A model generated the notes under the pieces. It saw only the letters and a list, made by a program, of their open reading frames with translations, was not told the DNA's origin and ran no database searches. Source: Flavobacteria bacterium BBFL7 (lineage in GTDB: Bacteria > Bacteroidota > Bacteroidia > Flavobacteriales > Flavobacteriaceae). Taken from it: a stretch of DNA of 64,000 bases. The stretch is from positions 1,004,958-1,068,957 of the forward strand of contig CH672374.1 in the NCBI GenBank assembly GCA_000153385.1, in the 5' to 3' direction. A program made the translations under genes and the position numbers. Below, piece after piece: positions 5,272 through 59,000 of this stretch (its first letter is position 1; the number at the start of each line of letters is the position of its first letter).

Positions 5272-5287
5272 CGCTTTCGCGAAAGCG
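5272..5287. repeat. 16-bp palindrome CGCTTTCGCGAAAGCG (copy 1)
   Basis: A perfect 16-bp palindrome 8 bases downstream of the abiH stop codon, in the abiH-hsdM spacer. It is one of 11 copies in the window. Confidence 0.9.
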
Positions 5288-5295
5288 TAATTAAA

Positions 5296-6582
5296 TCAAA
5301 GTAGTGGTTCACAATATTGTTTGTTCACTACACGATCTCTCAGTTTCTGTTTATCATTAAAGTTTCTAGTAATATTGCGTACAATATCGCTATAATTATC
5401 ACTTCCATCCTTTTTTAGATGATAATAAGGTTTAATAGAAACGCAGTTATCATGTTCAAATAAGGTGTTGAGTAAAGTCCTGTCTGAATTACCACAAGAA
5501 TGCCCCATAATTACCACCTGATATTGATCACTATTCACAAATTCCAGCAGCCTTTTATAATTATCACGATCAAGATATTTTACGGACTTAATGTTTTCTA
5601 AGTAGCGGTTGTCATCTAGCTTCTCTATATCCAGGTAATCATCATCCAACTCATCACCATAGCCAAAAATGATTGGGTTGTCATCTTCTTCATGAATAGA
5701 ACCATGGATGTGAATAGGCTTAATATATGCTGGTTTTTCCTTTGGAAAACTTACATAAACATCCGAATGCTGATAAAAATTTGTGGTAGCAGTATAATTG
5801 AAACTGAGTAATAACGATTGTTTTACTGGAACATATTTAACGCCATTCATATCCTCACTAAGAAGATAATTACGAATCCCATTTATTGAAAAATCACCTC
5901 TCAAATCAGCAATAAAAATTTGATCAGTTTCCTCTAAATCTGAAATTTCAATTTTCCCTGATTTTAAACCTTCGAATGTTACTTTAAATCGATTAAATTT
6001 TTCTACCGCACGTTGATTGATGTAGTTTTCAGCAAAGTCTTTTAGCCTTGCTCGTTTATATATTTTAGAACCTATAGATTTTCTATGTTTCCAAAATTCA
6101 GGATTTTCATCTTTATACTTTTCTTTAAACTTTTCTTCAATAGAAATTAAATATTGATTTAATTTATTCTTAATTACCTTAAAATCAGCATTCAATTGAT
6201 CAATTTGTTTTTTACTAGCTTCAGTTTGCTGCTGTTGATCAATTTTATAGCATTCTGTAAGTGTTACATAATATTCCTTTTCAATATCTACCCAGCTATT
6301 GACGTATTGTCTCTTTACAACTTTTTCAAAAAATTTATTTTTATAATGAATAGTTGAGAAATGTCGCTCGACTTTTCTTTTTGCAGACTCATTGCTATCA
6401 ATATCCTCCCAAAACCCATGGAAATTTGAAACTGAAACTAACTCATTCTGATAACCAGCCACACCATTTTGATAAGCCTTTCCTAAAACTTCTCTCCATA
6501 GATAATCTAAAAAGTCATTATACGACGTTTTCATCCCATGTGCGAGATCAAATCCATTCCCTATTAATACGATTCTATTCAA
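5296..6582 (-). CDS. abiH: AbiH-family abortive infection protein
   Basis: A 428-residue protein. Its N-terminus MNRIVLIGNGFDLAHGMKTS, with the glycine-rich GNGFDLAHG motif at 8-16 followed by SYNDFLDYLW, is the signature of the AbiH family (bacteriophage abortive infection protein, first described in lactococci). The C-terminal half has IHIHGSIHE and NPIIFGYGDELD, also typical of the family. The biochemical activity of AbiH is not established. The gene lies between hsdR (4 bases away) and hsdM, so it is an internal cistron of the type I operon. The same order is seen in other Bacteroidota defence islands. I infer a back-up suicide function linked to restriction. Confidence 0.82.
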   Translation of the reverse strand: MNRIVLIGNGFDLAHGMKTSYNDFLDYLWREVLGKAYQNGVAGYQNELVSVSNFHGFWEDIDSNESAKRKVERHFSTIHYKNKFFEKVVKRQYVNSWVDIEKEYYVTLTECYKIDQQQQTEASKKQIDQLNADFKVIKNKLNQYLISIEEKFKEKYKDENPEFWKHRKSIGSKIYKRARLKDFAENYINQRAVEKFNRFKVTFEGLKSGKIEISDLEETDQIFIADLRGDFSINGIRNYLLSEDMNGVKYVPVKQSLLLSFNYTATTNFYQHSDVYVSFPKEKPAYIKPIHIHGSIHEEDDNPIIFGYGDELDDDYLDIEKLDDNRYLENIKSVKYLDRDNYKRLLEFVNSDQYQVVIMGHSCGNSDRTLLNTLFEHDNCVSIKPYYHLKKDGSDNYSDIVRNITRNFNDKQKLRDRVVNKQYCEPLL

Positions 6583-6586
6583 CGTC

Positions 6587-9500
6587 TTATGCGGTATATA
6601 AATGGTTATTAATGGAATCTATGACTTGCTCTACTTCCTCCTGAAACTGCTTGTTAATTCTTTTAAATCCGCCATCACTTTTAAAAGGTTCTTTGTCTAA
6701 ATCTTCTTTGGTAAGAACCGTTTCGGCTAGCATTTGGGCTTCAAAACGTGTCAACCATTTTAATTGTAACGCATTAAAGTTTTTACTTTGTTTCACTTTC
6801 GCGAAAGCGGACTTAATACGGTCCTCATGGGCAACCAGTGCTTCTCCTAGAGCAGCGGTTCTTATATAACTTACAATATCTGCTGCAATGTCCTCATTTT
6901 TGGACTGTCGCCATGCCGCGTTTAAATAACGCTCGTTAAATCCATCTTGGTCCAGCATCATCTTCAACTCCTTAAGCGATGTACGGTCTAGGGAATTAGG
7001 ACTGGTCAATATGGTTTTAATAGCCAGTACCTTATTGCGATGTGTTGCGATATAATGATTGAAACTCTCAATATAATCTCCAGGCTTTTGCGCCTCACCA
7101 AATTTCTGTTCCATGGCTATGAACTCGTCTTCTTGATCTGCCACCATTTGCATGCCTGGTCTAGTAAACTTTTGATCTAGAAATTTCCATAAACTGCCGT
7201 ACTCTTCTATAATCGTTGCCACCTCGCTGCCTTGTGCATTCTTGAAGATATTCAGTAGTTCATCTGCTGTTTTACCTTGGGCATTGTATTGCAGCTCTTC
7301 ATTGCGGTCTACTTTTTCAATTTGGCGTTTTTTCACTTGAAATTTTGCAATGATTTTTTGCATCTGGCGTTGTGCGCGATCATCATTATCAATATGTTCC
7401 ATCTCTTGCGCTAGTTGCTGGAACGATATACGTGGATCTGACACAGGACGTATTTGTATAAAATCTTCTAATGCTTCATACAATCGTACGGCATCATAAA
7501 TTTTAAATACCTCTTTATTGATCTCGTCACATTTTCTAGTCGCACGACCTACCATTTGTTCATACAAAATACGTGAGCGTACTCGTCTTAAGAAAACAAG
7601 GTTGGTAATTTTAGGAACGTCTATTCCTGTAGTTAATAAATCTACCGTCACCGCAATCGTTGGAAATTTTTCGTTCTTGAATTGCGTAGTTAACTCCTGC
7701 GGATTATAAGATTTACCTGTAATTTTTTCAATAGTTCCTTGCTCTACTCTACATCCTATTGCGTCAAATTCTTCCTTGAATATTTTCACAATCAAATCTG
7801 CATGTTCATCTCTAGCTGCAAATATTAATGTCTTTTCTTCACTTTCAGGATCGATGATTTGCACCAGTTGTTTGATAACGGCACGGTTAAAAGGCTCGGT
7901 AATCACCAATTTATTAAACTGGTCTATTTCAAATTTCAACTCATCGTCTAGTGCTGCCAGTTCTTCAATCTTACCAGTTTCTGGATTATAGGCTTTAGGA
8001 CGTTCTCCTTTTTTCCAAACGATTCCTTCAGAATTGAGTTTAGTTTTAATATTATATGGTGGCTCATAATCAATCAAGTGACCATCAAGAACTGCCTGTC
8101 TATAAGAATAACTAAACACAGGTTCTCCAAAAATTTGAGTAGTATGTAACGCTGGCGTTGCAGTTAAGCCTATGATATAAGCATTAAAATACTCTATCAC
8201 TTTTTTATACTGACTCACATAATCGTCCTGATCTTTAAAGCTCAAGTCGTCCTCATCAATTTCTTTATCTAGGTTATAACCTCTGTGTGCTTCATCAATG
8301 ATGATACAGTCATAACTATCTATAGGTAAAGGATCTTCATTATAAAATAATCGTTTTACCATACTTTGCACGGTAGCAAAATGCAATCGAGTCTCGCCAT
8401 CTGGTGTGGTGTCTTTTAATTCTTCTAGTTGGTAAACATCTGCAAACGTATTGAGGTTTTCAATCTTGTTATCTTGATAGTTTCCTATCGCTTGTGTCGC
8501 GAGCATTCTTCTATCTGTCAAGAATAGAATGCGTTTAAAACGATCTGACTTTATAAGTCTGTATGACAAACCTATTACCGTTCTGGTTTTACCTGTACCA
8601 GTTGCCATGACTAATAAAGAACGTTGTTCTTCTGGTCGTTCTATAATTTTTTTCTCGACCTTTTTAATAGCGTCTATTTGATAATCACGTAGTGAAAGTC
8701 CTGTTTTATCTGCTAAGTAATCATAATCGCTTTTCTCTAATCGATCGTTAGATTCATCTATATCGCGCTCGTATAATTCTACAAGACCTTGCGGAGAAAA
8801 CCATCCTTTTAAAGCAGCTGCATGATTGTCTTTTTTTCTAATATCTAGATACCATATCCCGCTTTTAGTTTTGAGTTGTTCTAAAAATTCTCTACCGTTT
8901 GTACTGAAAAGAAATGGAACTTTATAGCCATGCCAATTACCTAACCGCTCAATATCTTGTGCATCTGTAACGCGTTCTGCATATATTTTAGACTGACGTA
9001 AATCAGTAGAAATATCACTGCGGTATCTTTTAGCTTCTACAATTCCGTAAAGTGTGGTTCCAACAAACAAAGCATAATCTGCCCATTTGCCATCGCAATA
9101 CCATTCGGCTATCGCCATGTTGCGACCTTTTTCAGGAAGTGTTTTATGCGTTTTATAATTCAGTAAATCAGTATCTACTTCCCAACCTGCTTTTTTAAGA
9201 GCTGGATCAATTAAAAGTATTCTCGTGTCGTGCTCGTTAAGATCAATATTACGCGCACTTTTATTGGATCGTGATTTACGAGTCTCCTGAACTTCCTTAG
9301 AACTATTGAGTTTTTCAATTTTTGCTTTGTAATCTTGTAACTGCTGTTCTAAAAAATCTAGTTGACCTTGTAATTCGTGAGCACGTTCATCAACCACTAC
9401 TGGTAACTCATATGCTGGTAACTCAAGAAAATCATTTTCATAGGTTTCATAAAACCATTTGGAAAGCTTGAATGTCTTTTTAAGAATAAACTTGGCTTGA

Positions 9501-9799
9501 TCAAAAGAACCTGTCCCATAATGACTTGCCTGATTTCCAGATTTTCTGATGGTATGGAATATACCTTCAATAACCTCAGGCAAGATATTAGAATAAGCCA
9601 ATCTATTAAGCCTATCCAATTGAGTGCCATTGAAATCTCCCATTTGCTCAAAATCCCAAATCAATTGAGACATCTTTTCAGCCAGCAAACGAGTCTTAGA
9701 CAAAGATGAACTAGGATCTACATGAATGAGCTGTTCAGATAATTCGGCTATCACAAAAAGTGTAGGATAATCATCTTTAAGAAAATTGAAATGGCTCAT
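6587..9799 (-). CDS. hsdR: Type I restriction endonuclease/translocase HsdR
   Basis: A 1070-residue ATP-dependent translocase and nuclease, first gene of the defence operon. The N-terminal region (about 1-130) looks like DUF4145. A coiled coil follows (about 140-175), then the PD-(D/E)XK-type nuclease core with D241 and EAKRY (255-259). The SF2 helicase motor has Walker A ATGTGKT (399-405), the DEAH box (502-505), a GLTATPA motif and motif VI VGRATRK. The order matches EcoEI/EcoR124-like HsdR proteins and the length is normal. The codons around residues 1021-1026 (SAFAKV) come from a copy of the dispersed palindrome at 6796. A hairpin followed by a T-run lies 29-76 bases upstream of the start. 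Confidence 0.94.
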   Translation of the reverse strand: MSHFNFLKDDYPTLFVIAELSEQLIHVDPSSSLSKTRLLAEKMSQLIWDFEQMGDFNGTQLDRLNRLAYSNILPEVIEGIFHTIRKSGNQASHYGTGSFDQAKFILKKTFKLSKWFYETYENDFLELPAYELPVVVDERAHELQGQLDFLEQQLQDYKAKIEKLNSSKEVQETRKSRSNKSARNIDLNEHDTRILLIDPALKKAGWEVDTDLLNYKTHKTLPEKGRNMAIAEWYCDGKWADYALFVGTTLYGIVEAKRYRSDISTDLRQSKIYAERVTDAQDIERLGNWHGYKVPFLFSTNGREFLEQLKTKSGIWYLDIRKKDNHAAALKGWFSPQGLVELYERDIDESNDRLEKSDYDYLADKTGLSLRDYQIDAIKKVEKKIIERPEEQRSLLVMATGTGKTRTVIGLSYRLIKSDRFKRILFLTDRRMLATQAIGNYQDNKIENLNTFADVYQLEELKDTTPDGETRLHFATVQSMVKRLFYNEDPLPIDSYDCIIIDEAHRGYNLDKEIDEDDLSFKDQDDYVSQYKKVIEYFNAYIIGLTATPALHTTQIFGEPVFSYSYRQAVLDGHLIDYEPPYNIKTKLNSEGIVWKKGERPKAYNPETGKIEELAALDDELKFEIDQFNKLVITEPFNRAVIKQLVQIIDPESEEKTLIFAARDEHADLIVKIFKEEFDAIGCRVEQGTIEKITGKSYNPQELTTQFKNEKFPTIAVTVDLLTTGIDVPKITNLVFLRRVRSRILYEQMVGRATRKCDEINKEVFKIYDAVRLYEALEDFIQIRPVSDPRISFQQLAQEMEHIDNDDRAQRQMQKIIAKFQVKKRQIEKVDRNEELQYNAQGKTADELLNIFKNAQGSEVATIIEEYGSLWKFLDQKFTRPGMQMVADQEDEFIAMEQKFGEAQKPGDYIESFNHYIATHRNKVLAIKTILTSPNSLDRTSLKELKMMLDQDGFNERYLNAAWRQSKNEDIAADIVSYIRTAALGEALVAHEDRIKSAFAKVKQSKNFNALQLKWLTRFEAQMLAETVLTKEDLDKEPFKSDGGFKRINKQFQEEVEQVIDSINNHLYTA
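6796..6807. repeat. Palindrome core CTTTCGCGAAAG in hsdR (copy 2)
   Basis: A 12-bp core (one flank degenerate) is read in the HsdR frame as AFAKV. It is a member of the dispersed CGCTTTCGCGAAAGCG family. Confidence 0.75.
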
Positions 9800-9827
9800 C
9801 TAGAATTTAATGTTTAATAATAAAAAA

Positions 9828-9875
9828 CCCTAAAACGCACTTATCCAATGATGTAGGAAAATTTGTGTTTTAGGG
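9828..9875 (-). terminator. Terminator-like hairpin in the hsdR leader
   Basis: Arms CCCTAAAACGCA (9828-9839) and TGTGTTTTAGGG (9864-9875) pair with one mismatch around a 24-base loop. On the minus strand the stem is followed directly by TTTTTT, as in an intrinsic terminator, 28 bases before the hsdR ATG. No minus-strand gene lies upstream that it could terminate. It is therefore placed to attenuate hsdR transcription, or it may be an operator. Confidence 0.5.
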
Positions 9876-9909
9876 GAATGTGAATATATGAAATCAAATT
9901 GTAATTATT

Positions 9910-10181: not shown

Positions 10182-10207
10182 ATTTTAATCACAATTTATT
10201 TAAATTT

Positions 10208-10229: not shown

Positions 10230-10240
10230 ATATATTTATT

Positions 10241-11077: not shown

Positions 11078-11093
11078 CGCTTTCGCGAAAGCG
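11078..11093. repeat. 16-bp palindrome CGCTTTCGCGAAAGCG (copy 3)
   Basis: A perfect copy of the dispersed palindrome, 27 bases downstream of the unknown + strand gene. There is no T-run, so it is not an obvious terminator. Confidence 0.9.
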
Positions 11094-18314: not shown

Positions 18315-20021
18315 ATGTATTCACTTGCCATTATTGGTTTAGGTCCTAGAGGCTTATATGCGCTAGAGTGTTTAATGGTATCGCTTTCGCGAAAGCGAGA
18401 CACCCATAATCCTAAAGTTGCACTTATAGAATCTCAACAATTTATAGGTTGTGGTAGTGCCTGGAATATTCACCAACCAGATGCTAATACTATCAATATT
18501 TCTGATCGTGATTTAAAAGGATTACCAGAACGTAGTGTGATTAAAGGTAACGGATTCCATATCACTGCGTTTCCGTCTTTTATAGATTGGGTAAAAGTGA
18601 ATTACAATCATCAATTAGATGACCATAAGGACACTTACTTTAATCGCAACGTGATGGGTAAATATTTACATCTACGTGCAAAAACTATAGTAGATCATTT
18701 AGTTGCACAAGAAATTGTGTCCTTAATCAAAGCTAGAGCGACAAGCATTGTTTTCAAAAATCAAATTGCAGAAATCAGTTTTAAAAATGGTATTCATGCC
18801 TCTATACTAGCCCAGCATACCTTATTAACTACAGGACATCTATCAGAAAATATGTCTTTACAAGATCAGGGATTTTATCAACATGCAACGCAAAAAGAAG
18901 ACGTATTCTATATTCACAATCCATATACAGAAAAGGCATACAGCCTATACAGCAGTTTTCATCGTGTAGCTATTAAAGGTATGGGATTAAGTATGATTGA
19001 TATAGTCCATTTATGCATTGATCGATTACAAGGAAAATTTATACCTAAAAAAAACGGCCCATTTCTGAGCTTTGAACACAATACTAATGATGAACTAAAA
19101 ATATATCCATTTTCACTAGATGGATTACCAGTAATGCCTAAGCCTATAGGCAAAACTGTTGATAACCAATTCAATATAGAATCATCAGTAATTGAGGAAT
19201 TAAAGAAAGAGTTAGAGAAATTAATAGAACATCCCAATTTTCTAAATATTGAAGACATTTTAACGCCTATAGTTGATATTATTAAAAATAAATATCAACA
19301 GCTGGACTCTAGCTTACCTGATGTAAATATCCACCAATTGATCATGAGCTGGCTGCTCGATGAAAGAGTAGAAAGCTCATTATGGTTGGATACAGATTTA
19401 CAGACTGTAGAATATCTTAAACAAGCTAGTCTTATGGCTTGTGGTATGCGTCCGTTTACATTAGATTATACCATAGGTCAGGTATGGAGACAATTGCAAC
19501 CTGTGCTTTATCCCATTTTTACACATAGTAATTTATCACCAGAACTACAGAGCAAATTTATTCAGACTGATGAACTTACAAAACGATATTCCTATGGACC
19601 ACCTGTAGAACGTGTTTTACAACTAATTGCTCTTTCTGAAAGTGGAATTTTAGATTTCGGTCTGGTAACCAATCCAACAATTAAAGAGAATAAAGACGGC
19701 TGGATTTTGAAAAATAAAACTAATGAAAAATTGGTGCAATCCATGATCAATGGAGTGCTAGCCAGCCCTCAATTAAAAAATATCGATGACTCTTTAATTA
19801 ATGAATTATTCAATCTTAATTATTTAGAACCTTTTCACAAACAACTAGGAATTAAAACTAATGAACATGCACGTGTGCTAACAGAATCTGAGACTGCATT
19901 AGAAATATCTGTATTAGGTAGAAATGCTAAAGGTTCTGTGTATGGTGTAGATGCCATTTTAGAGTGTTTCAGCCCTAAAGTAATGGCATGGGCAAATCAG
20001 TTTACAAAGGACTATATTTAA
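18315..20021 (+). CDS. FAD/NAD(P)-binding protein (YdhS/HI0933-like)
   Basis: A 568-residue protein with an N-terminal Rossmann dinucleotide motif SLAIIGLGPRGLYALECLM (GxGPxG about residues 8-13), as in the FAD-NAD(P)-binding family PF13454. Further pocket motifs are GCGSAWNIHQPDANTINISD and VAIKGMGLSMIDIVHLCIDR. Substrates of this family are mostly unknown. One study case is hydroxyhistidine-type biosynthesis, but no such context exists here. Residues 23-28 (LSRKRD) derive from a dispersed palindrome copy at 18382, located in the loop after the first helix of the Rossmann fold. A bidirectional terminator follows. Confidence 0.75.
   Translation: MYSLAIIGLGPRGLYALECLMVSLSRKRDTHNPKVALIESQQFIGCGSAWNIHQPDANTINISDRDLKGLPERSVIKGNGFHITAFPSFIDWVKVNYNHQLDDHKDTYFNRNVMGKYLHLRAKTIVDHLVAQEIVSLIKARATSIVFKNQIAEISFKNGIHASILAQHTLLTTGHLSENMSLQDQGFYQHATQKEDVFYIHNPYTEKAYSLYSSFHRVAIKGMGLSMIDIVHLCIDRLQGKFIPKKNGPFLSFEHNTNDELKIYPFSLDGLPVMPKPIGKTVDNQFNIESSVIEELKKELEKLIEHPNFLNIEDILTPIVDIIKNKYQQLDSSLPDVNIHQLIMSWLLDERVESSLWLDTDLQTVEYLKQASLMACGMRPFTLDYTIGQVWRQLQPVLYPIFTHSNLSPELQSKFIQTDELTKRYSYGPPVERVLQLIALSESGILDFGLVTNPTIKENKDGWILKNKTNEKLVQSMINGVLASPQLKNIDDSLINELFNLNYLEPFHKQLGIKTNEHARVLTESETALEISVLGRNAKGSVYGVDAILECFSPKVMAWANQFTKDYI
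18382..18397. repeat. 16-bp palindrome (copy 4) inside the FAD-protein gene
   Basis: A perfect CGCTTTCGCGAAAGCG read in frame as L-S-R-K-R near the N-terminus. Confidence 0.9.
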
Positions 20022-22123: not shown

Positions 22124-23188
22124 TTAAAAAATACTAGTTAATAAATTGATGTATATATCGATGCCGTCTTCAATCTCTTCTAGATATATAAATTCATCTG
22201 CGCTATGAGATCGTGTGCTATCGCCAGGACCTAATTTTAAAGAAGGACAACTTAAACACGCCTGATCTGATAGGGTAGGTGATCCATAAGTGGTTCTTCC
22301 CATCGCTATTCCTGCTTGCACCAGTTCATGTTCTACAGGAATAGAAGAAGAATTTAATCGTAAACCACGTGCAATAATCTCATGACATGGCGACTGCTCT
22401 TTCAACATTTCTGCAATCTCTTGATTGCTGTATTTATCGTTGACTCTTACATCAATGACCAGTTCTACCTCTGACGGCACAGCATTATGTTGCACGCCAG
22501 CTTTAATTTGCGTTACCGTCATTTTTACATCACCTAATGACTCAGACGATTTTTCAAACTTAAAATCTTGAAACCATTTTAAAACCTCTATAGAATTATA
22601 AATCGCATTATTATCGTTAGGGTGAGCAGCATGTCCTGGAGTACCTTTTACTTTGGCATCAAAAACGACCAATCCTTTTTCAGCGACTGCTAGATTCATT
22701 AACGTAGGCTCGCCCACAATAGCCACATCTATATGTGGTATGATATCTAGCATACTATTTAAACCATTTGGGCCGCTGCTTTCCTCTTCGGCGCTAGCGA
22801 CTATGACCAGGTTATATTTTAAATCTTTTTGATTATAAAAATGAGTAAACGTGGCGATTAAAGAAACCAGACAACCACCAGCATCATTACTGCCTAGACC
22901 GTATAATTTACCATCTTCAACTATTGCTTTAAATGGATCTTTTGTGTAGGCTTTATTGGGTTGTACCGTATCGTGATGTGAGTTCAACAACAATGTAGGT
23001 TTCCCTTTTTCAAAATATTTATTAGTCGCCCATATATTATGATGGTCTCTTTTAAATGGAATTTCATGATTATTAAACCATGATTCTATCAGTAAAGCAG
23101 TTCCCTCTTCTTCACTAGAAAACGATTGTGTTTCTATCATTTTTTTCAACAACTCTAGAGCCTCTTTTTTTAAATCTTGATGTTTCAT
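22124..23188 (-). CDS. argE: N-acyl-L-ornithine/citrulline deacylase, M20 family
   Basis: An M20 di-zinc amidohydrolase that removes the acyl group late in arginine synthesis. The start is set at 23188 because that ATG overlaps the argB stop by one base (TAATG). The longer frame to 23287 would overlap argB by 100 bases with no homology. That gives 354 residues. Metal-site motifs are NSHHDT (69-74), GSNDAGG (99-105) and the catalytic/metal pair in AEEESSGPNG (133-142). In an argF'-containing pathway the substrate is acylcitrulline rather than acylornithine, and with Ser89 in ArgF' that is probably N-succinylcitrulline. Confidence 0.9.
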   Translation of the reverse strand: MKHQDLKKEALELLKKMIETQSFSSEEEGTALLIESWFNNHEIPFKRDHHNIWATNKYFEKGKPTLLLNSHHDTVQPNKAYTKDPFKAIVEDGKLYGLGSNDAGGCLVSLIATFTHFYNQKDLKYNLVIVASAEEESSGPNGLNSMLDIIPHIDVAIVGEPTLMNLAVAEKGLVVFDAKVKGTPGHAAHPNDNNAIYNSIEVLKWFQDFKFEKSSESLGDVKMTVTQIKAGVQHNAVPSEVELVIDVRVNDKYSNQEIAEMLKEQSPCHEIIARGLRLNSSSIPVEHELVQAGIAMGRTTYGSPTLSDQACLSCPSLKLGPGDSTRSHSADEFIYLEEIEDGIDIYINLLTSIF

Positions 23189-23964
23189 TAGTTCGATATT
23201 GTAGTGAATAAACTGTTTGAATTTTGAAGCATTTCTGGCAATCCTACACATACTTTTTGCACGCCATTTTGAATAGCTTGAAAACAATTTTGCATTTTAG
23301 GCAGCATTCCGTCGGCAATAATTCCTTGTGATTTTAAATCTTGATAATTTTCTAGATTGATATTTTTAATTACAGAATTCTCATCTGAAATATTCTGTAA
23401 GACTCCTTTTTTCTCAAAACAGTAATACAGTTCTGTTTCATAGTTTTTAGCAAGTGCAATAGCGAGTTCAGCAGCAAGAGTATCTGCATTTGTATTTAAC
23501 AATTGACCATGTCCGTCGTGCGTTATGGCGCAAAATACTGGAGTACGCTTTCGCGAAAGCAACACCTCAACAATCTCTGTATCTACTTTTACAACATCTC
23601 CTACATAACCAAAATCCACCTCTTCTACATCTCGCTTTTTAGACAAAATGGTATTCCCATCAGCTCCTGTAAACCCTATGGCATTGCACTGCTTAGCCTG
23701 CAATTTTGCTACAATAGTTTTGTTTACTTTACCAGCGAAGACCATAGTGGCAATGTCCAATGTTTCCGAATCTGTGATACGGCGACCATCTATCATTTTC
23801 ACTTCAAGATTCATTTTTTGAGCCAATTCTGTAGCCACTTTTCCACCTCCATGAATAAGAACTTTAGGTCCTTTTACCGCATTAAATGTGGTTAAGAAAT
23901 CATCTAGTGCTTGCTGGTCATTAATAATGTGCCCACCTATTTTTATAACTTTAAGCTGTTCCAT
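23188..23964 (-). CDS. argB: Acylglutamate kinase
   Basis: A 258-residue amino acid kinase that phosphorylates N-acylglutamate. The lysine/glycine ATP motif KIGGHIINDQ (8-17), the substrate loop LIHGGGKVATEL (36-47) and GRRITDSETLD (60-70) are conserved. Residues 135-140 (LLSRKR) before TPVFCAITHD are encoded by a copy of the dispersed palindrome, so a repeat lies inside a conserved metabolic enzyme without breaking it. One-base overlaps (TAATG) couple it to argF' upstream and argE downstream. Confidence 0.94.
   Translation of the reverse strand: MEQLKVIKIGGHIINDQQALDDFLTTFNAVKGPKVLIHGGGKVATELAQKMNLEVKMIDGRRITDSETLDIATMVFAGKVNKTIVAKLQAKQCNAIGFTGADGNTILSKKRDVEEVDFGYVGDVVKVDTEIVEVLLSRKRTPVFCAITHDGHGQLLNTNADTLAAELAIALAKNYETELYYCFEKKGVLQNISDENSVIKNINLENYQDLKSQGIIADGMLPKMQNCFQAIQNGVQKVCVGLPEMLQNSNSLFTTISN
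23547..23560. repeat. 14-bp palindrome (copy 5) inside argB
   Basis: GCTTTCGCGAAAGC is read on the minus strand as L-L-S-R-K-R, ahead of the conserved TPVF strand of the kinase. Confidence 0.85.
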
Positions 23965-26050: not shown

Positions 26051-27028
26051 TTAAAAAAAGTTGGCTTTAAGTTGTAAACCTTGATCTTCAGAAAAATCGA
26101 ACATCAAATTCATATTCTGTACTGCCTGCCCAGACGCACCTTTCAATAAGTTATCGATCACACTCGTTATCAATAAAATGTCGTTATGCTTATGTAGGTG
26201 TATTAGACACTTATTAGTATTAACTATTTGCTTTAAATGCACCTCTTTATCAGACACAAATACAAATGGTGAGTCTTTATAATAGTCCTTATAAAAGTTC
26301 TTTATATCTTCAAGTGGCAAGTCTACTTTAGTATAAGCTGTCGCAAAAATCCCTCTACTGAAATCACCACGATTAGGTACAAATAGCACATTAGAATCAA
26401 AATCTTGTTGCGACTGTCTTAAAGTCTGATTTATTTCTCCAAGATGCTGATGTGTGAAAGCTTTGTAGTGTGAGAAATTATTATCTCTCCAGGTAAAATG
26501 TGTTGTTGGTGATAAACTTGTACCTGCACCTGTTGCACCAGTAACTGCATTTACGTGTACATCTTCTTTTATCAATTGCTGTACAGCTAGTGGTAAAATG
26601 GCAAGTTGTATCGCTGTTGCAAAACATCCTGGATTTGCCACATGAGTAGCTTTTTTAATCTCTTCTTTTTGATACTCGCACAGTCCGTATGTGAACTCGC
26701 TTTCGCGAAAGCGTGCATATTCCATCAACCTAAAATCATTACTTAAATCGATCATTTTTGTACTTGTTGAAAATTGATGTTTCTCTAAAAACGATTTTGA
26801 ATTGCCATGACCTAGACATAAAAACAAAACATCTACATTACTATTTAATTGGTATGTAAACACCAAATTTGTAGTGCCTAAAAGATCTTGATGCACATCG
26901 CTCACCGCATTACCAGCATTAGAAGTTGAGTATATAAAATCTATGACTACCTCATCATGATGAATTAAAAGTCTTATTAATTCTCCTGCTGTATAACCAG
27001 CACCACCTATTATTCCTGCTTTAATCAT
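26051..27028 (-). CDS. argC: N-acyl-gamma-glutamyl-phosphate reductase
   Basis: A 325-residue NADPH-dependent reductase. Rossmann motif GIIGGAGYTAGELIRLL (5-21), active-site Cys135 in VANPGCFATAI and the C-terminal His region NKCLIHLHKHNDILLI are visible. Residues 106-110 (RFRES) in the segment before FTYGL derive from a dispersed palindrome copy read in a third frame. The start overlaps the argG stop by 4 bases. Confidence 0.94.
   Translation of the reverse strand: MIKAGIIGGAGYTAGELIRLLIHHDEVVIDFIYSTSNAGNAVSDVHQDLLGTTNLVFTYQLNSNVDVLFLCLGHGNSKSFLEKHQFSTSTKMIDLSNDFRLMEYARFRESEFTYGLCEYQKEEIKKATHVANPGCFATAIQLAILPLAVQQLIKEDVHVNAVTGATGAGTSLSPTTHFTWRDNNFSHYKAFTHQHLGEINQTLRQSQQDFDSNVLFVPNRGDFSRGIFATAYTKVDLPLEDIKNFYKDYYKDSPFVFVSDKEVHLKQIVNTNKCLIHLHKHNDILLITSVIDNLLKGASGQAVQNMNLMFDFSEDQGLQLKANFF
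26698..26713. repeat. 16-bp palindrome (copy 6) inside argC
   Basis: A perfect CGCTTTCGCGAAAGCG translated as R-F-R-E-S, so the element has been accepted in a third reading frame. Confidence 0.9.
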
Positions 27029-37471: not shown

Positions 37472-40087
37472 TTACCTTTTTACCGCAAAAAAACCAGTTT
37501 GCTCTTTTGAGACATTATCGACATCATATTGTAATAAGTACCAGTAAGTACTCGATGGTAAAGGGTTACCATTATAGGTAGCATCCCAACCTATTCCATC
37601 CGGCGAGAGTTGCTTTAATAGTTTTCCATAACGATCAAAAATATAAATACCTGTTACATTAACATCTGCACTATTGATATCTATTCTCCAAAAATCGTGA
37701 TAACCGTCATTATTTGGTGTCATGTAATCTGGTATAATAAACATAGGTTCTTCTGGCTCAGGTATGATAATTGTCGGGTTAATCGTCAATTCAAAACTCA
37801 CTTCATCATCACAGCCTGATGTATTCACATCATAGACATATAATGTAACAGGATAAGTTGTAAAGTCAGTTATGTCAATTACATCACCAGTATTATATGA
37901 AATACCTAGTCCATTACTTTGAGTGAAAAATTGTTGATTACCGCTTAAGTTATTTCCACCTATACTAGGTAAAACATAAGTACCTGTTGCTGTTTGAGCT
38001 CCTATAGGATTTAATTCTGGGTTAGGAATAACATTAATTGTAATTGTTTCTGTTATAGAGTTATTAGTACTTAAACCACTATCTGTAACAGTACATTCGT
38101 ATATAGTAGTGACAAGTGGCGTGGCTGTTAAAGTCATAGCATTAGATAAAATCGTAGTCGTTCCTTGCTCTTGCCATTCATAACTGTATGTTCCTTGAGG
38201 AGTGGTCGGACTCACAATAGCGGTTAAAGTTGTTGATTCACCAGAACAAAAATTATTACTAGTAGAGTTAAGTACTAAACCTAACATAGGCGGATCCATG
38301 ATACCTAAAATAAAACTTTCCTCATCACTACAACTTCCGTTATCATCATAAATATATAAAGCTATAGGTAATACTGCAAAATCTGCAGATGTAACTATAT
38401 CACCAGGATTATACATCGTACCGTTTCCATTAGGTTGTGTATAATATGCCTCTCCACCGGTTAATCCAGTTCCCGTAATCGCAGGAAAAGTGAAACTACC
38501 CGTTACATTTTGATCCATTAAATCATCAATATCAATGACCGGCAACACATTAAAGTCTGTCATATCAAACCCCATATCCGTACCATTCTCAACACCAGAA
38601 TCATTGACGGTAACTGAAACCGTAGTCGCAGCATTTACAGTTACTGTAATGGACGCTGTATTAGGGTAACTTGATCCTTGGGTATCGGCCCAATTAAAGG
38701 TATAATTACCAAAAGCCGTGGCAGGAACTGGTGTTGCAGTTAATGTGACCATTTCACCAGCACATACATCTTGAATTCCACCTGGACTAATTGTCACTTG
38801 CACATCTACAAACTCAATATCAAACTGCTCTATAAGTTCACATCCATTTGAGTCTATACCGTAGACATATATCGTTGCTGGATTAGTCATAAATAAAGCA
38901 GGATCTATTACATCTCCAGTATCCCATGGCGTTCCTGTATGGGCTGCATTATCATAAAAACCAGTATTTGCAGGAATATTAGTCCCAGTTATTGCAGGTA
39001 ATGTATAATTACTATGCGCAATAACATTTGCAATAGGATTCCACGATGGTTGAGGATTTACAGTGACTGTAATACTAGAAGTCGCTATATTATCTGGAGC
39101 GACACGCCCAGAATCTGTAATAGTACATTCATATATTGTAGTCGAATTAATATTAATAGGTAAAGTAGCACTAGTACCTACTACACCTGCTTGACCTTGT
39201 ATGCTCCATTCATAAGAATATACGCCTAATGGCGTTAAAGGATCTGCTGTGGTACTTAGAATTGTATTAGCATTTTGACAATATTCTGGAGCGGCGTTTC
39301 CGTTTGAATCTTCTATTTCTAAACTAATAGAACAAATAACATCAGAAGCGACCTCAGCAGCACCAAATATATCTGAACTCACTAAATTAGGGCAATTTGC
39401 AGTAGTTTGTGCTGTGTTAATATCAACAAAACGTGTATCATTACCGCCAGTGGCTACTAATTCAAAAGTTGGATTAATGGCACATGGATTTGCACTTATG
39501 ATTGTAACTACCCCAAAAACATTATTAAAACCAGACACACTAGGAATGGTTCCTACTAGACTAGAGTTACTTGGATTTGCCACATCGATAAGAACAAGAT
39601 CATTACCGTCTGCACTTAAGTACAGATTACCATTAAAATAAGTTAAGTCTCCTGCACTAGGAAAACCCGTATCTCCTATAAAAGTAGCCGTCATACTAGC
39701 TATATCAAACCTAAATAGTCCACCAGGCGAGTTAGTATGAACACCTAATAAGGTTCCAGGTCCTTCTTTAACTAGCGAATCCACTCTAAAATTTCCAGTA
39801 AACCCAACAATATTTAAAGTACCTAAGGATGTTACAGATCCATTAGACACGTTAATCAAAAATAGTTCATCATTTCGTATTCCATAAAGGGTATCATCCG
39901 TATCACCTTGTGCTATATCAAAAAATGAAGAAGTATGACTTGCAACTGTTGTAGATGTACAACTTCCTAAATCAGCTAGGACAATATCACCATTTGCAAG
40001 ACACAAATAAGAAGAATTTACAGATTGCGCTTTCGCGAAAGCGAAAATAAACAAACATAACAGGCTTAAAATCAGATGCTTTTTCAA
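37472..40087 (-). CDS. Large secreted protein with gliding-type (CHU_C) C-terminal domain
   Basis: An 871-residue protein. Signal peptide MKKHLILSLLCLFIFAFAKA with cleavage before QSV. The N-terminal third is a propeller-like module (NGDIVLADLGSCT, TDDTLYGIRNDEL). The middle has three or four PKD/Ig-like repeats with alternating CxxxxxTLTA and YVYGIDSNGC patterns. The end has TPNNDGYHDFWRID, IFDRYGKLLKQLSP and GNPLPSSTYWYLL, the type B CTD used for type IX secretion. It is probably an adhesin on the cell surface or released. The AFAKA of its signal peptide comes from the palindrome at 40028. Confidence 0.85.
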   Translation of the reverse strand: MKKHLILSLLCLFIFAFAKAQSVNSSYLCLANGDIVLADLGSCTSTTVASHTSSFFDIAQGDTDDTLYGIRNDELFLINVSNGSVTSLGTLNIVGFTGNFRVDSLVKEGPGTLLGVHTNSPGGLFRFDIASMTATFIGDTGFPSAGDLTYFNGNLYLSADGNDLVLIDVANPSNSSLVGTIPSVSGFNNVFGVVTIISANPCAINPTFELVATGGNDTRFVDINTAQTTANCPNLVSSDIFGAAEVASDVICSISLEIEDSNGNAAPEYCQNANTILSTTADPLTPLGVYSYEWSIQGQAGVVGTSATLPININSTTIYECTITDSGRVAPDNIATSSITVTVNPQPSWNPIANVIAHSNYTLPAITGTNIPANTGFYDNAAHTGTPWDTGDVIDPALFMTNPATIYVYGIDSNGCELIEQFDIEFVDVQVTISPGGIQDVCAGEMVTLTATPVPATAFGNYTFNWADTQGSSYPNTASITVTVNAATTVSVTVNDSGVENGTDMGFDMTDFNVLPVIDIDDLMDQNVTGSFTFPAITGTGLTGGEAYYTQPNGNGTMYNPGDIVTSADFAVLPIALYIYDDNGSCSDEESFILGIMDPPMLGLVLNSTSNNFCSGESTTLTAIVSPTTPQGTYSYEWQEQGTTTILSNAMTLTATPLVTTIYECTVTDSGLSTNNSITETITINVIPNPELNPIGAQTATGTYVLPSIGGNNLSGNQQFFTQSNGLGISYNTGDVIDITDFTTYPVTLYVYDVNTSGCDDEVSFELTINPTIIIPEPEEPMFIIPDYMTPNNDGYHDFWRIDINSADVNVTGIYIFDRYGKLLKQLSPDGIGWDATYNGNPLPSSTYWYLLQYDVDNVSKEQTGFFAVKR
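40028..40043. repeat. 16-bp palindrome (copy 9) in a signal peptide
   Basis: A perfect CGCTTTCGCGAAAGCG is read on the minus strand as F-A-F-A-K-A directly before the predicted cleavage site. Confidence 0.9.
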
Positions 40088-49307: not shown

Positions 49308-50207
49308 ATGATATTAAGCCTTAAAAATGTTTCTAAAACTTATTCTAATGGTGTAAAAGCATTAGATGATGTTACGATTAATATAAACGCAGGAATGTTT
49401 GGTTTATTAGGACCTAACGGTGCTGGTAAATCATCTATGATGCGAACCATTGCAACACTTCAATCACCAGATTCTGGAAGCATACATTTAGATGGATTAG
49501 ATATCTTAAATAATAAGATAGAATTTAGAAAAACATTAGGTTATTTACCTCAAGAATTTGGTGTATATCCTAAAATGAGCGCTCATGATTTACTTCATTA
49601 TTTTGCAAGTCTTAAAGGTATCACCAGCAAGGCAGAACGTAACGCTATCGTTGACAAAGCACTTGAAGTAACTAATTTAAGTGACGTACGCAATAAACAT
49701 GTAGCAGGTTATTCTGGTGGTATGAAACAACGTTTCGGTATCGCACAACTACTATTAAACGATCCTAAATTAATTATTGTTGATGAGCCTACAGCAGGTC
49801 TTGATCCAGCTGAACGTCACCGATTTTTAAATGTGCTGCGTGAGATAGGAACTAATCATATCGTTATATTCTCTACACACATCGTTGATGATGTAAAAGA
49901 ACTTTGTACTGATATGGCAATTCTTAATGGTGGTAAAATACTAGCACAAGCAACTCCTAAACAAATGACTGCTGCACTCGCTGGTAAAATATGGACTACT
50001 ACTGTAGAACGCGATGGAATCGAACAAATGCAACAAGATTTCAATGTAATTTCTTCTAACTATAATGAAGATAATAAACTTAATGTACGTGTTTATGGAG
50101 AAGTTTCTCCTGGCGACGCTTTTGCGAAAGCTGACCCTACACTAGAGGACGTATACTTTACAACTTTAAGTAATGACAAGTTTATTGCTGAAACTGAAAT
50201 CGCATAA
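49308..50207 (+). CDS. ABC transporter ATP-binding protein
   Basis: A 299-residue ABC ATPase. Walker A GPNGAGKS (35-42), signature SGGMKQR (136-142) and Walker B LIIVDEP (155-161) are intact. The C-terminal region is of the type paired with ABC-2 permeases. Its stop is 2 bases before the permease-peptidase gene, so they form one operon and one transporter. Residues near the end (GDAFAKADP) come from a degenerate copy of the dispersed palindrome at 50117. Confidence 0.92.
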   Translation: MILSLKNVSKTYSNGVKALDDVTININAGMFGLLGPNGAGKSSMMRTIATLQSPDSGSIHLDGLDILNNKIEFRKTLGYLPQEFGVYPKMSAHDLLHYFASLKGITSKAERNAIVDKALEVTNLSDVRNKHVAGYSGGMKQRFGIAQLLLNDPKLIIVDEPTAGLDPAERHRFLNVLREIGTNHIVIFSTHIVDDVKELCTDMAILNGGKILAQATPKQMTAALAGKIWTTTVERDGIEQMQQDFNVISSNYNEDNKLNVRVYGEVSPGDAFAKADPTLEDVYFTTLSNDKFIAETEIA

Positions 50208-54054: not shown

Positions 54055-55479
54055 ATGAAAGTTTTACTCACAGGTGCAAATGGTTATATAGGAATAAGGT
54101 TATTATATGAATTACTTAAACAGGACCATGAAGTAATTTGTGCGGTGCGAAGTGCTACACGACTATCAGTACCACAAGAAATTAAAGATCAAATAGAAAT
54201 AATCGAAATTGATTTTTTAAATCTTAAATCTGATCAAGAACTACCTAAGAATATAGATGCTGCATACTATCTTATACACTCCATGAGCAGTAGCACCGAG
54301 AGTTTTGACACAATGGAGGCAGATAGTGCCATGAATTTTGTACAACTCATCAATACCACAAATTGTAAGCAAGTTATCTATCTATCAGGTATTGTTAATG
54401 AAGAAAAGCTTAGTAAACATTTGCTTTCGCGAAAGCGTGTTGAAGATCTTCTCTATGAATCAACGGCTGAAGTAACTGTACTTAGAGCAGGAATCATTGT
54501 GGGAAGTGGAAGTTCTTCATTTGAAATCATACGTGATTTATGTGAAAAGCTTCCCTTAATGATTACGCCGAAATGGGTGAATACTAAGACTCATCCTATA
54601 GCTATACGTAATGTGATGAGTTATTTAACTGGTGTTCTAGGCCGCGAAGATTGCTATAACCATAGTTATGATATAGGTGGTAAAAATGTTCTTACTTATA
54701 AAGAAATGATGACACGCTATGCCAAGATGCGTAAAATTAAATTATACATCTTTACTGTTCCTGTGATGACGCCTAAATTAAGTTCTTACTGGTTATATTT
54801 TGTGACGAGCACCTCTTATAAACTGGCGCAAAACTTAGTCAACAGTATGGCGATTGAGGTTGTAGCACAACCTAATAATCTACGAGAAAAATTAGGAATA
54901 GAATTATATAGTTATGAAGAGGCACTAGATATGGCGTTTGCTAAAATTGAGCAAAATCAAGTAGCTAGTAGTTGGAAAGACTCTATGGTAAGCGGTCGTT
55001 TTAAACATAATCTCAATAAGTACAAACAAGTACCCAGTTATGGATGTTTAAAAGACGCTCAAGAAATGAAAACAAATGATCCTGCTAGCGCACTAGAACG
55101 TATATGGTCTATAGGTGGTAAAAATGGATACTATTATGCTACATATTTATGGAAAATAAGAGGTTATGTAGATAAGATTATGGGTGGCGTAGGTCTACGT
55201 CGTGGCCGAACAAATACGAACACTATTTATGCGGGAGATTCTTTAGATTTCTGGAGAGTTTTAGTAGCCGATAAAAAAGAAAAGAGGTTACTCTTATTTG
55301 CAGAAATGAGAGTTCCCGGAGAAGCCTGGTTAGAATTTGAAATTGATGAAGATGATGTTGTACATCAAACAGCCACCTTCAGACCACGAGGTATATGGGG
55401 ACGACTATATTGGTATGCAATGCTACCATTTCATTATTTCATATTTGCTGGTATGATGAGACGTATTGCAAAAGGTTAA
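54055..55479 (+). CDS. NAD(P)-binding SDR protein with DUF2867 domain
   Basis: A 474-residue protein. The N-terminal extended short-chain dehydrogenase domain has the TGANGYIG nucleotide motif (6-13), QVIYLSGIV and VLRAGIIVGSGSSSFEII. The C-terminal DUF2867 domain starts around RIWSIGGKNGYYYATYLWKI and ends RLYWYAMLPFHYFIFAGMMR. The two-domain layout resembles bacterial YbjT-like proteins. Function unknown. The segment HLLSRKRVEDLL near residue 124 is read from a palindrome copy. A TATCTTTA element lies 4 bases upstream of the start. Confidence 0.8.
   Translation: MKVLLTGANGYIGIRLLYELLKQDHEVICAVRSATRLSVPQEIKDQIEIIEIDFLNLKSDQELPKNIDAAYYLIHSMSSSTESFDTMEADSAMNFVQLINTTNCKQVIYLSGIVNEEKLSKHLLSRKRVEDLLYESTAEVTVLRAGIIVGSGSSSFEIIRDLCEKLPLMITPKWVNTKTHPIAIRNVMSYLTGVLGREDCYNHSYDIGGKNVLTYKEMMTRYAKMRKIKLYIFTVPVMTPKLSSYWLYFVTSTSYKLAQNLVNSMAIEVVAQPNNLREKLGIELYSYEEALDMAFAKIEQNQVASSWKDSMVSGRFKHNLNKYKQVPSYGCLKDAQEMKTNDPASALERIWSIGGKNGYYYATYLWKIRGYVDKIMGGVGLRRGRTNTNTIYAGDSLDFWRVLVADKKEKRLLLFAEMRVPGEAWLEFEIDEDDVVHQTATFRPRGIWGRLYWYAMLPFHYFIFAGMMRRIAKG
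54423..54436. repeat. 14-bp palindrome (copy 10) inside the SDR gene
   Basis: GCTTTCGCGAAAGC is read as L-L-S-R-K-R, the same peptide frame as the copy in argB. Confidence 0.88.
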
Positions 55480-55482
55480 ATA

Positions 55483-55514
55483 AAAAAAGGGTAGAAATGA
55501 TTCTACCCTTTTTT
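55483..55514. terminator. Bidirectional terminator
   Basis: 14-bp perfect arms around AAAGGGTAGAA / TTCTACCCTTT with a 4-base loop (ATGA), between convergent genes. Confidence 0.92.
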
Positions 55515-55522
55515 ATAATAAA

Positions 55523-57396: not shown

Positions 57397-57473
57397 AATG
57401 CGAATTTAATAATATAAGGGTCTATTATTTAAGGAATCAACAATGACTTTATCAACTTTATTTTATAACAAAA

Positions 57474-57502
57474 AACTCTCTAACACAGTGTGCTAGAGAG
57501 TT
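57474..57502 (-). terminator. Terminator after citrate synthase
   Basis: 13-base arms with one mismatch (AACTCTCTA... and ...TAGAGAGTT) around a 3-base loop. The A-run before it becomes a T-run on the minus strand. Confidence 0.85.
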
Positions 57503-57525
57503 CATATATTAATAACTAGAAAATA

Positions 57526-58812
57526 TTACCTTTCAGACACTTCTTTAAATGGTCTGTGATTTTCACCTGTATAAACCTGACGTGGTCTACCTATAGGCTC
57601 TTTATTCTCACGCATTTCTTTCCATTGTGCAATCCATCCTGGAAGACGTCCTAATGCAAACATTACAGTGAACATTTCAACTGGAATTCCCATAGCTCTA
57701 TAAATAATACCAGAATAGAAGTCAACGTTAGGATATAGCTTACGATCTACAAAGTAAGAATCTTCAAGAGCTTCTTTCTCAAGACCTTTTGCGATATCTA
57801 AAATAGGATCATCTACTCCTAATGAGTTAAGCACCTCATCTGCTGCTACTTTAATGATTTTTGCACGAGGATCAAAATTCTTATATACTCTATGTCCGAA
57901 TCCCATTAAACGGAATGGGTCACTTTTATCTTTAGCTTTGGCCATGTACTTTTTAGTATCACCACCATCTTCTTTTATCGCTTCAAGCATTTCTAATACC
58001 GCTTGATTTGCACCACCATGAAGTGGTCCCCATAAAGCATTAATTCCAGCACTCAAACTAGCAAATAATCCTGCATGAGAAGAACCTACAATACGTACTG
58101 TACTAGTTGAACAGTTTTGCTCATGGTCTGCATGAAGAATTAATAATTTATCTAATGCGCTTGCGATTCTTTCATCCACATTATATTCAGCATTAGGTTT
58201 TTTAAACATCATTTTTAAAATGTTCTCAACATAACCTAAGTTGTCATCTCCATAATCTAATGGCTGACCTGTTCTTTTTCTAAGTGCCCATGCAACTAAA
58301 ACAGGGAATTTTCCCATAATGTTAACAATTGCCTTATACATATCCTCTTCACTGTCCACATTTACTGACGATGGATTAAATGCTATCAATGCACTTGTAA
58401 GTGAAGAAAGTACTCCCATCGGGTGAGCAGACTTAGGAAATCCATCTAGAATTTTCTTTACATCTTCATCTACATGAGAATTTGCTTTAATGTCTGCATG
58501 AAATTTATCTAATTGCGCTTGTGTAGGCAATTCTCCAAAAATCAATAGATAAGCTACTTCTAAAAAATCTGCTTTATCAGCTAGTTCCTCAATGGAATAA
58601 CCACGGTATCTTAGAATACCTTCTTCTCCATTTAAAAACGTGATAGCGCTTTCACAACTACCTGTATTTTTATATCCAGGATCAATTGTGGTAACTCCAC
58701 CTGTTGCACCTCTTAAAGCCTTAATATCTATGGCTTTTTCATTTTCTGTTCCAGTGATAATTGGGAATTCATATTTATTCCCATCGATTTCTAAGATAGC
58801 TTTTTCTGACAT
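57526..58812 (-). CDS. gltA: Citrate synthase
   Basis: A 428-residue type II citrate synthase joining acetyl-CoA and oxaloacetate. The catalytic blocks are SSHAGLFASLSAGINALWGP, MGFGHRVYKNFDPRA and the Asp in VDFYSGIIYRAMG. An N-terminal domain resembling the allosteric region of Gram-negative enzymes is present. Monocistronic with its own terminator. Confidence 0.96.
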   Translation of the reverse strand: MSEKAILEIDGNKYEFPIITGTENEKAIDIKALRGATGGVTTIDPGYKNTGSCESAITFLNGEEGILRYRGYSIEELADKADFLEVAYLLIFGELPTQAQLDKFHADIKANSHVDEDVKKILDGFPKSAHPMGVLSSLTSALIAFNPSSVNVDSEEDMYKAIVNIMGKFPVLVAWALRKRTGQPLDYGDDNLGYVENILKMMFKKPNAEYNVDERIASALDKLLILHADHEQNCSTSTVRIVGSSHAGLFASLSAGINALWGPLHGGANQAVLEMLEAIKEDGGDTKKYMAKAKDKSDPFRLMGFGHRVYKNFDPRAKIIKVAADEVLNSLGVDDPILDIAKGLEKEALEDSYFVDRKLYPNVDFYSGIIYRAMGIPVEMFTVMFALGRLPGWIAQWKEMRENKEPIGRPRQVYTGENHRPFKEVSER

Positions 58813-58982
58813 TATAATATTTTGGATTTAACTACTTCAAAAATAATACATAGACCGTTAACTTGTCGTTAATCGGCACCACATATTTAACATATTTAAG
58901 AAAATATTTTGCTTTTATATATCGATTTCGAGATTTATCGGTAATCTAATAGTTATTTAGGAATCAGATTGGTTTTGTAGTT

Positions 58983-59000
58983 ACGCTTTCGCGAAAGCGT
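58983..59000. repeat. Palindrome (copy 11), 18 bp, intergenic
   Basis: The CGCTTTCGCGAAAGCG core (58984-58999) is flanked by A and T to give 18 bp. It lies in the spacer between gltA and the metalloprotease gene, near the protease terminator. Confidence 0.9.

Follow-up and report, generated by a model that had tools for sequence, protein, structure and literature searches.

What is the short palindrome that recurs along a 64,000-nt stretch of the genome of Flavobacteria bacterium BBFL7 (the window), and what keeps it both inside genes and between them? The host belongs to Nonlabens (Flavobacteriaceae). Exactly eleven cores, CTTTCGCGAAAG, are present in the window, and all eleven positions given in a preliminary description of this DNA were recovered. 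Eight of them are part of the perfect 16-mer CGCTTTCGCGAAAGCG; the other three each carry a single mismatch, which falls at one end of the 16-mer, within the outermost two bases. Positions 50117-50132 hold a further, degenerate copy (CGCTTTTGCGAAAGCT) with two mismatches, and because its 12-bp core is intact in three out of three aligned relatives, it is probably a lost site.

The core occurs 566 times in the complete 3,103,424 bp, that is, once per 5.5 kb; the reversed control gave no occurrence. A count against Markov or shuffled expectation, suggested at the outset, came out far above chance: a 380-kb genome sample contains 63 cores where 0.006 are expected (order-3 Markov), an excess of some 10,000-fold, and 100 out of 100 dinucleotide shuffles of the window yielded none. 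Base composition is ruled out as the cause by these shuffles and the Markov expectation. We found no published description of the palindrome in the literature searched. Its appearance is that of an address label for the whole genome, which may serve in the recognition and uptake of own-kind DNA. The preliminary description holds in so far as it recognised that the palindrome is dispersed, tolerated in different reading frames and unlike a transposon end in its behaviour, compared it to HIP1 of cyanobacteria, and named uptake, chromosome organisation, methylation and repair as roles to consider; the likeness that it saw to Rickettsia palindromic elements is not supported, and it missed the symmetry of the flanks, the evenness of the spacing, the excess between genes and the all-or-none distribution described below.

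Placement and conservation of the sites

Eight of the eleven window copies lie inside ORFs, as first described, and the peptides into which they are read in the different frames (gene families by Pfam) are likewise borne out. LSRKR is encoded three times: by the perfect 16-mer at 18382-18397 in an FAD-NAD(P)-binding gene (18315-20021, forward strand), where the core is kept in three of three aligned relatives (74-78% identity); by CGCTTTCGCGAAAGCA at 23546-23561 in an argB-like amino-acid-kinase gene (23188-23964, reverse strand); and by TGCTTTCGCGAAAGCG at 54422-54437 in an NAD(P)-binding/DUF2867 gene (54055-55479, forward), with the core kept in all three aligned relatives. AFAKA also occurs three times, always from a perfect 16-mer: close to the N-terminus of ORF 31590-32354 (forward; 31625-31640), the protein of which has no Pfam match; in an HMA/MauE gene (34653-35381, forward; 34883-34898); and close to the N-terminus of a CHU_C gene (37472-40087, reverse; 40028-40043). 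The first and the last are kept in 3/3 aligned relatives, the core at 34883 in 2/3, being broken in genome G184. The single AFAKV is read from CACTTTCGCGAAAGCG at 6794-6809 in an HsdR-like gene (6587-9799, reverse), and the single RFRES from the perfect 16-mer at 26698-26713 in an argC-like semialdehyde dehydrogenase gene (26051-27028, reverse). The perfect 16-mers at 5272-5287, 11078-11093 and 58984-58999 are intergenic, the last of them kept in three of three aligned relatives (81-83% identity).

No aligned relative is available for the copies at 5272, 6794 and 11078. The part of the window for which no relative aligns, about 16 kb, holds three sites. Sites occur in island-like and core DNA alike, as had been noticed before. 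The lack of depletion in this small island-like part is counted against an uptake signal and differs from Neisseria, where acquired DNA is depleted.

Of 74 sampled sites of this genome, 45 lie within ORFs and 29 are intergenic, with only about 10% of the bases being intergenic; the density of sites between genes is some four times the average. Coding sites in Nonlabens are, moreover, concentrated in the first 40 codons (24 out of 76 versus 9.5 expected). In Dokdonia it is not clear that the N-terminal part is likewise enriched (5 out of 33 versus 3.6 expected), which is also counted against an uptake signal.

Cores at aligned positions in close relatives are intact in 25 out of 26 cases, as compared to 20-48% of other 12-mers. 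Both sites in the arginine genes are kept in four of four close relatives. Two of two aligned distant relatives lack the core at 23546 and carry a different, gap-free sequence at 26698. These distant Nonlabens (G182 and G189) have different bases at both window sites that can be aligned, and the objection named in the preliminary description, that ordinary ancestral codons might stand there in distant relatives, did not hold at either. None of the 140 Dokdonia sites has alignable Nonlabens DNA, among that sampled, at the orthologous place. A rise in identity to relatives near the sites, looked for as a sign of recombination centred on them, was not seen, and this too is counted against an uptake signal.

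Hundreds of near-identical copies could suggest a selfish or mobile short repeat, such as the remnants of a self-copying transposon, a REPIN or a palindromic element. We disfavour this origin and consider it highly improbable, as none of eleven alignments of site with no-site sequences shows a 14-16 bp insertion (the gaps are of at most three bases), the flanks show graded base preferences only, the spacing is even and not clustered, and 45 of 74 sites stand inside ORFs. The claim that the palindrome is no transposon end is sustained by these eleven alignments, which also speak against the likeness to the rickettsial elements. Those of Rickettsia are insertions of greater length that keep the reading frame; they and REP/REPIN sequences have in common with the present sites that they are dispersed palindromes, but here there is no sign of insertion, the copies are unclustered, and more of them lie inside genes than between genes.

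Spacing and flanking sequences

The sites are more evenly spaced than expected by chance. Over the first 100 sites on contig 1, the coefficient of variation of the spacing is 0.57 versus 0.99 by chance, an evenness matched by none of 10,000 random sets, and the site counts in 19 stretches of 20 kb have an index of dispersion of 0.27 (P 8e-4). All sampled stretches of this genome contain sites, except for a short one of 4.9 kb; this spread is a further difference from Noc/ParB-type chromosomal binding sites.

On either side of the palindrome, base preferences extend symmetrically over about 20 bp, with T/G to the left and A/C to the right. This graded signal is present in both Nonlabens and Dokdonia and is the same at coding and intergenic sites, which rules out a codon effect. 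Loss of cytosine around a break was considered as the sole cause; a binding preference fits the flanks better, because G is enriched and A is depleted as well. The flanks do not share a 10.5-bp helical period in Nonlabens and Dokdonia; the strongest period is 9-9.5 bp in the former and 6-7 bp in the latter.

A perfect dyad with two-sided flanks and even spacing would suit a dimeric binder, and the sites might thus organise the chromosome: a nucleoid protein (a ParB/Noc-like clamp, an SMC loader or a bending protein) would bind the palindrome with its flanks, and domains of about 5 kb would be set by selection for even spacing. We regard this as unlikely. The 16-bp palindromes bound by Noc and ParB-type proteins share the TTTC..GAAA theme, a point in its favour, but the two halves are separated by two bases here and by four there, and the copies are far more numerous here; known Noc, SlmA and MatP sites number far below the approximately 570 found. 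The canonical parS/Noc words, TTTCACGTGAAA and TTTCCCGGGAAA, are absent from the 837,855 bp of Nonlabens DNA that were sampled, and distant Nonlabens carry their sites at other places than the genome studied here. Dense, even and conserved sites would also serve break repair or supercoil relief, as another DNA-form signal kept by selection, i.e., Chi-like control of recombination or a gyrase-type site; however, the Chi sites known so far lack symmetry and those of gyrase are degenerate, and we consider such a role quite unlikely.

Distribution among genomes, phages and plasmids

The density of the palindrome across the family is all-or-none. The high-count genomes (the counted Nonlabens and Dokdonia, and one g190) have 297-937 copies; in a family sample of 397 genomes, the count for the 391 others is 0-19. 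The carriers do not form one clade in the rpoB phylogeny (AU p 0.022), where Leeuwenhoekiella is the sister of Dokdonia/g190; L. marinoflava and L. palythoae have only 12 and 16 copies, which argues further against a chromosome-organising site.

The palindrome is absent from two Nonlabens phages (71.4 kb) and from plasmid contig G189:C2 (29.2 kb, with Rep3 and Mob genes; stretches L402 and L407), which would suit an organising site. Seven small extra contigs (L400 to L406) hold 4, 1, 0, 2, 2, 0 and 1 sites, respectively; only L402 was kept as plasmid. Of the other six, all set aside, L400 and L401 resemble, by their ORFs, chromosomal genes duplicated in inverted orientation, and the ORFs of L403 give no clear picture. 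A plasmid collection compared with a made-up consensus returned partial matches only, to Enterococcus-type plasmids. A scan of viral contigs gave at least 120 stretches with matches, mostly single ones. One IMG/VR stretch of 11.3 kb has three sites and is counted against an uptake signal. In other genera, shared islands contain copies that are perfect and carry the flank signature.

The comparison with HIP1 made in the preliminary description is fair: both are perfect palindromes in high copy number, in and between genes and in any reading frame. HIP1 consists of 8 bp (GCGATCGC) in cyanobacteria, in contrast to a 16-bp core of different sequence with flanks of about 20 bp in Flavobacteriaceae. 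A repair model for HIP1 is given in the available part of one study (PMC4390886). A resident methylase and biased mismatch repair could by analogy create and keep an iterated, conserved palindromic word without a selected site function; some mismatches are indeed tolerated at positions 1, 2, 6 and 7 of the 16-mer. The methylation role proposed earlier has so far gained no support, given that no family of the three methylase families covered occurs throughout the 29 genomes of Nonlabens and Dokdonia: N6/N4 (PF01555) occurs in 12, C5 (PF00145) in 15 and D12 (PF02086) in 13. Genomes G189, G190, G202 and G174 lack all three, and yet G202 has 664 14-mers, G174 has 634 cores and G189 has six sites in a 20-kb stretch. 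To our knowledge, no methylase site is as long as the 16-bp core plus flanks, and we consider a HIP1-like origin improbable.

A candidate DNA uptake signal

The reading that we prefer, with a confidence falling just short of even, is by analogy: the palindrome would be the core of a symmetric DNA recognition site of about 50 bp that functions in the manner of Haemophilus and Neisseria uptake signals and owes its spread to bias in DNA uptake and to recombination. A postulated DNA-binding component of the competence apparatus would prefer site-bearing DNA; uptake of such fragments, and their recombination into the chromosome, would be more frequent, and the sequence would therefore spread to about one site per fragment length (4-6 kb), wherever the harm is small. 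The same reader would have to operate in Nonlabens and Dokdonia/g190, either through transfer of the system or through old ancestry followed by losses.

Counted in favour of an uptake signal are the even spacing, the intergenic and Nonlabens N-terminal excess, the flanks, the conservation, the lack of insertion, the two Nonlabens phages and the Rep3/Mob contig without sites, and ComEC. The ComEC domain is present in 29 out of 29 genomes of Nonlabens and Dokdonia; it is also present in 12 out of 12 low-count genomes (41/41 in all), which is counted against. In the literature search listings consulted, we saw no account of competence for either Nonlabens or Dokdonia, and no candidate for the receptor emerged; both points are counted against as well.

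In the available parts of the sources, known uptake sequences are described as evenly spaced and not palindromic (PMC1939737), the latter counting against an uptake signal here, as having originated by point mutation, with AT-rich flanks, and being scarce in acquired and constrained DNA (PMC7811141), and as occupying permissive, mostly intergenic places with strong conservation (PMC2397512). Those of H. influenzae occur about once per kb (PMC7811141, in part), a higher density that is likewise counted against. When transformed, Riemerella columbina shows a preference for its own DNA, according to the part available of another report (PMC7965970). The Nonlabens sites resemble the USS of Pasteurellaceae and the DUS of Neisseriaceae in being genome-wide, lineage-specific, spaced more evenly than by chance, enriched between genes and conserved, without sign of insertion, absent from the phages and plasmid contig tested here, and with an AT-rich flank preference outside a strict core. 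They differ in being perfect palindromes with two-sided flanks, although asymmetry is a shared trait of USS and DUS and not their definition, in occurring about once per 5 kb instead of 1 kb, and in the host phylum, Bacteroidota.

More broadly, it is possible, though we hold it only tentatively and with somewhat less than even confidence, that Flavobacteria take up DNA in a sequence-specific manner by means of a palindromic signal, a single DNA-reading receptor shared by lineages that do not form a clade having led molecular drive to write a word of 14-16 bp some 300-940 times per genome. A neighbouring clade may use another dialect, YTTCNGAAR, at roughly 0.4-1.1 per kb.

If the palindrome is an uptake signal, motif-based self-recognition in natural transformation would reach beyond Pasteurellaceae and Neisseriaceae, with the first Bacteroidota uptake-sequence system that has an identified motif, and the first palindromic one, within the literature searched; marine flavobacteria would also gain a handle for genetic work. 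Should the palindrome be a nucleoid site, it would constitute a chromosome address system of unusual regularity. Under either reading, the motif can tag DNA from donors of the Nonlabens/Dokdonia type, because the copies in shared islands of other genera are perfect and bear the flank signature.

Density, word form and placement of the palindrome

The window carries 11 copies of the 12-bp palindromic core CTTTCGCGAAAG, eight of which sit in a perfect CGCTTTCGCGAAAGCG, as well as a twelfth, degenerate copy of the palindrome. The BBFL7 genome (3,103,424 bp) contains 566 palindrome copies and none of the reversed pattern, and in 380 kb of sampled BBFL7 DNA the 12-mer was observed 63 times, where an order-3 Markov model predicts 0.006. 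Perfect 16-mers account for 62 of the 74 cores found in 448.9 kb of BBFL7 DNA. In an 838-kb Nonlabens set, which joins BBFL7 DNA with stretches from its relatives (picked regardless of the motif and partly orthologous), we counted 118 perfect 16-mers, while those with a single mismatch deviate at position 1 (26), 2 (3), 6 (6) or 7 (6), and never at positions 3, 4, 5 or 8.

The sites are spaced evenly. On contig 1, gaps among the first 100 sites average 5.13 kb with a CV of 0.57 versus 0.99 for random placement, a value as low being reached by none of 10,000 random sets, and only one gap is shorter than 1 kb against 17.5 expected; the number of sites per 20-kb stretch, taken over 19 stretches, gives an index of dispersion of 0.27 (Poisson P 8e-4). 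Placement is permissive: 45 of the 74 BBFL7 sites lie within ORFs, though ORFs cover 90% of the bases, so that the density of the 29 intergenic sites is about four times the average and nearly six times that of coding DNA. Sites within ORFs number 39 of 75 in the stretches from relatives and 18 of 35 in Dokdonia. Coding sites in Nonlabens fall within the first 40 codons in 24 of 76 cases (9.5 expected); the excess is not clear in Dokdonia (5 of 33; 3.6 expected).

BBFL7 probably belongs to Nonlabens; over its best stretch, the window shares up to 94% identity with the same-genus genome G199. DNA from up to four close relatives could be aligned at eight of the 11 window sites, and sites 5272, 6794 and 11078 aligned with no relative among the stretches compared. 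Of 26 such comparisons, 25 show an intact core, the relatives not being independent of one another; other 12-mers in the same alignments are intact in 20–48%. The copy at 50117 is broken in BBFL7, and its core is retained in three relatives. In more distant Nonlabens (G182, G189, G196 and G201), the palindrome occurs at other places, and the 11 site/no-site alignments with them contain no insertion at the site, gaps being of three bases at most.

Identity to relatives does not rise toward the sites. At 34.0–36.0 kb, two 1-kb bins reach 96% identity to G199 between bins of 84–88%, and around site 34883 identity is 99% over 312 bp; this patch looks like a recent exchange. The arginine genes (21–29 kb) are 91–96% identical to four relatives, with neighbouring bins mostly at 68–88%, which suggests either an exchange shared by these genomes or a strongly constrained cluster.

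A probable recognition site longer than the 16-mer

The site extends past the 16-mer. A two-sided base preference appears outside the word, T and G on the left and A and C on the right, which is most marked within about 20 bp of the core, is gone by about 36 bp and is alike in intergenic and coding sites. Sums for 182 Nonlabens sites and 147 Dokdonia sites, all distinct, show it in both genera. Left and right flanks are not correlated across these sites (0.05 in Nonlabens, −0.09 in Dokdonia). A BLAST search with a window stretch also returned short matches spanning the site and its flanks in other Nonlabens genomes. A flank score trained on BBFL7 sites was compared with its values at random places: it exceeds their 99th percentile at 38 of 68 sites in Dokdonia, at four of 13 in the Leeuwenhoekiella-like genome G144 and at none of 17 14-mers from unrelated phyla.

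Distribution among lineages and replicons

Genomes reached via the loci hold 297–720 copies in 10 Nonlabens, 394–937 in 11 Dokdonia and 1–13 in 12 others. In a family sample of 149 genomes, only BBFL7 and G010 are dense, the rest having 0–19 copies. A larger family sample (397 genomes, 237 genera), counted by the 14-mer, includes as dense genomes four Nonlabens (551–664 copies), one genome sharing the site coordinates of D. sinensis (857) and G252 of the genus labelled g190 (408); the remaining 391 have 0–19, with a single match overall for the reversed control. Of two metagenome bins labelled Cytophagaceae, one has 383 copies and the other 112. Of the 107 stretches listed as matches in a contig scan with the 14-mer, 25 bear the title Nonlabens and 45 Dokdonia, together 70. 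The 16-mer is weaker at its outer bases in G252 (7 of 17 cores perfect) and in the 383-copy bin (2 of 16). On an rpoB tree, Dokdonia and G252 group with Leeuwenhoekiella (12 and 16 copies) and Nonlabens is placed elsewhere; a single group of all nine carrier rows was rejected (p-AU 0.022, a modest value from one gene).

Nonlabens phages P12024S and P12024L (71.4 kb together) and a Nonlabens contig of 29.2 kb that carries Rep3 and Mob_Pre genes are devoid of the palindrome. This is countered by three sites each in the window's first 16 kb, which have no aligned relatives and show about genome density, and in the 11.3-kb viral-collection stretch IMGVR_UViG_2617271332_000001 (IMG/VR; by the 14-mer), perhaps a prophage of a carrier. 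Two small contigs of a close Nonlabens (L400 and L401; G184:C2 and G184:C3), with ORFs repeated in inverted order, are probably assembly artefacts.

Some low-count genera have a few copies in shared stretches (L040, L110, L112 and L116, from Aquimarina, G078, G087 and Altibacter). These are mostly perfect, bear the Nonlabens/Dokdonia flank signature and include one pair exactly 933 bp apart. In Aquimarina, the pair lies inside a gene whose translation, judged by eye, reads as a TolC-like efflux protein, adjoining a copper-oxidase-like gene (likewise judged). The shared stretch looks like gene transfer out of carrier lineages.

Proposed recognition and uptake, and a second palindrome

No match to GCTTTCGCGAAAGC was found in the literature searched, which comprised neither subscription papers nor preprints, and none of the ten papers containing TTTCGCGAAA is by title on Nonlabens or Dokdonia. 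By term search, the main text of an article on HIP sequences (PMC4390886) lacks Bacteroidetes, Flavobact and TCGCGA, and that of a REP survey (PMC12306157) lacks Nonlabens and Dokdonia.

The palindrome fits best as the recognition site of a DNA-binding protein; methylation is a less likely source. Biased DNA uptake followed by recombination could write such sites across the genome and would lead to even spacing, permissive placement, an origin by point changes and lineage-specific spread. These four traits are reported for the USS and DUS of Pasteurellaceae and Neisseriaceae (excerpts of PMC7811141, PMC1939737 and PMC2397512). The BBFL7 motif differs from known uptake sequences in being palindromic and less dense. 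A function in the nucleoid predicts much the same pattern. Because of the palindromy, the lower density and this near-equal prediction, our confidence in biased uptake and recombination as the writer of the sites is moderate at best. Self-preference in transformation is described in Riemerella columbina, where a motif is not established (excerpts of PMC7965970).

A shorter palindrome, YTTCNGAAR, exceeds the reversed control more than fourfold in eight of the 149 Flavobacteriaceae genomes (G012, G022, G027, G039, G054, G063, G078 and G101), with 4360 versus 642 in G063 and 3732 versus 539 in G039. It is not enriched in BBFL7 (291 versus 372 reversed). Seven of the eight are present on the rpoB tree, all in one ten-member clade, whose member G118 has no enrichment (333 versus 553 reversed). 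YTTCNGAAR may be another dialect of a system akin to that of the 16-mer palindrome.
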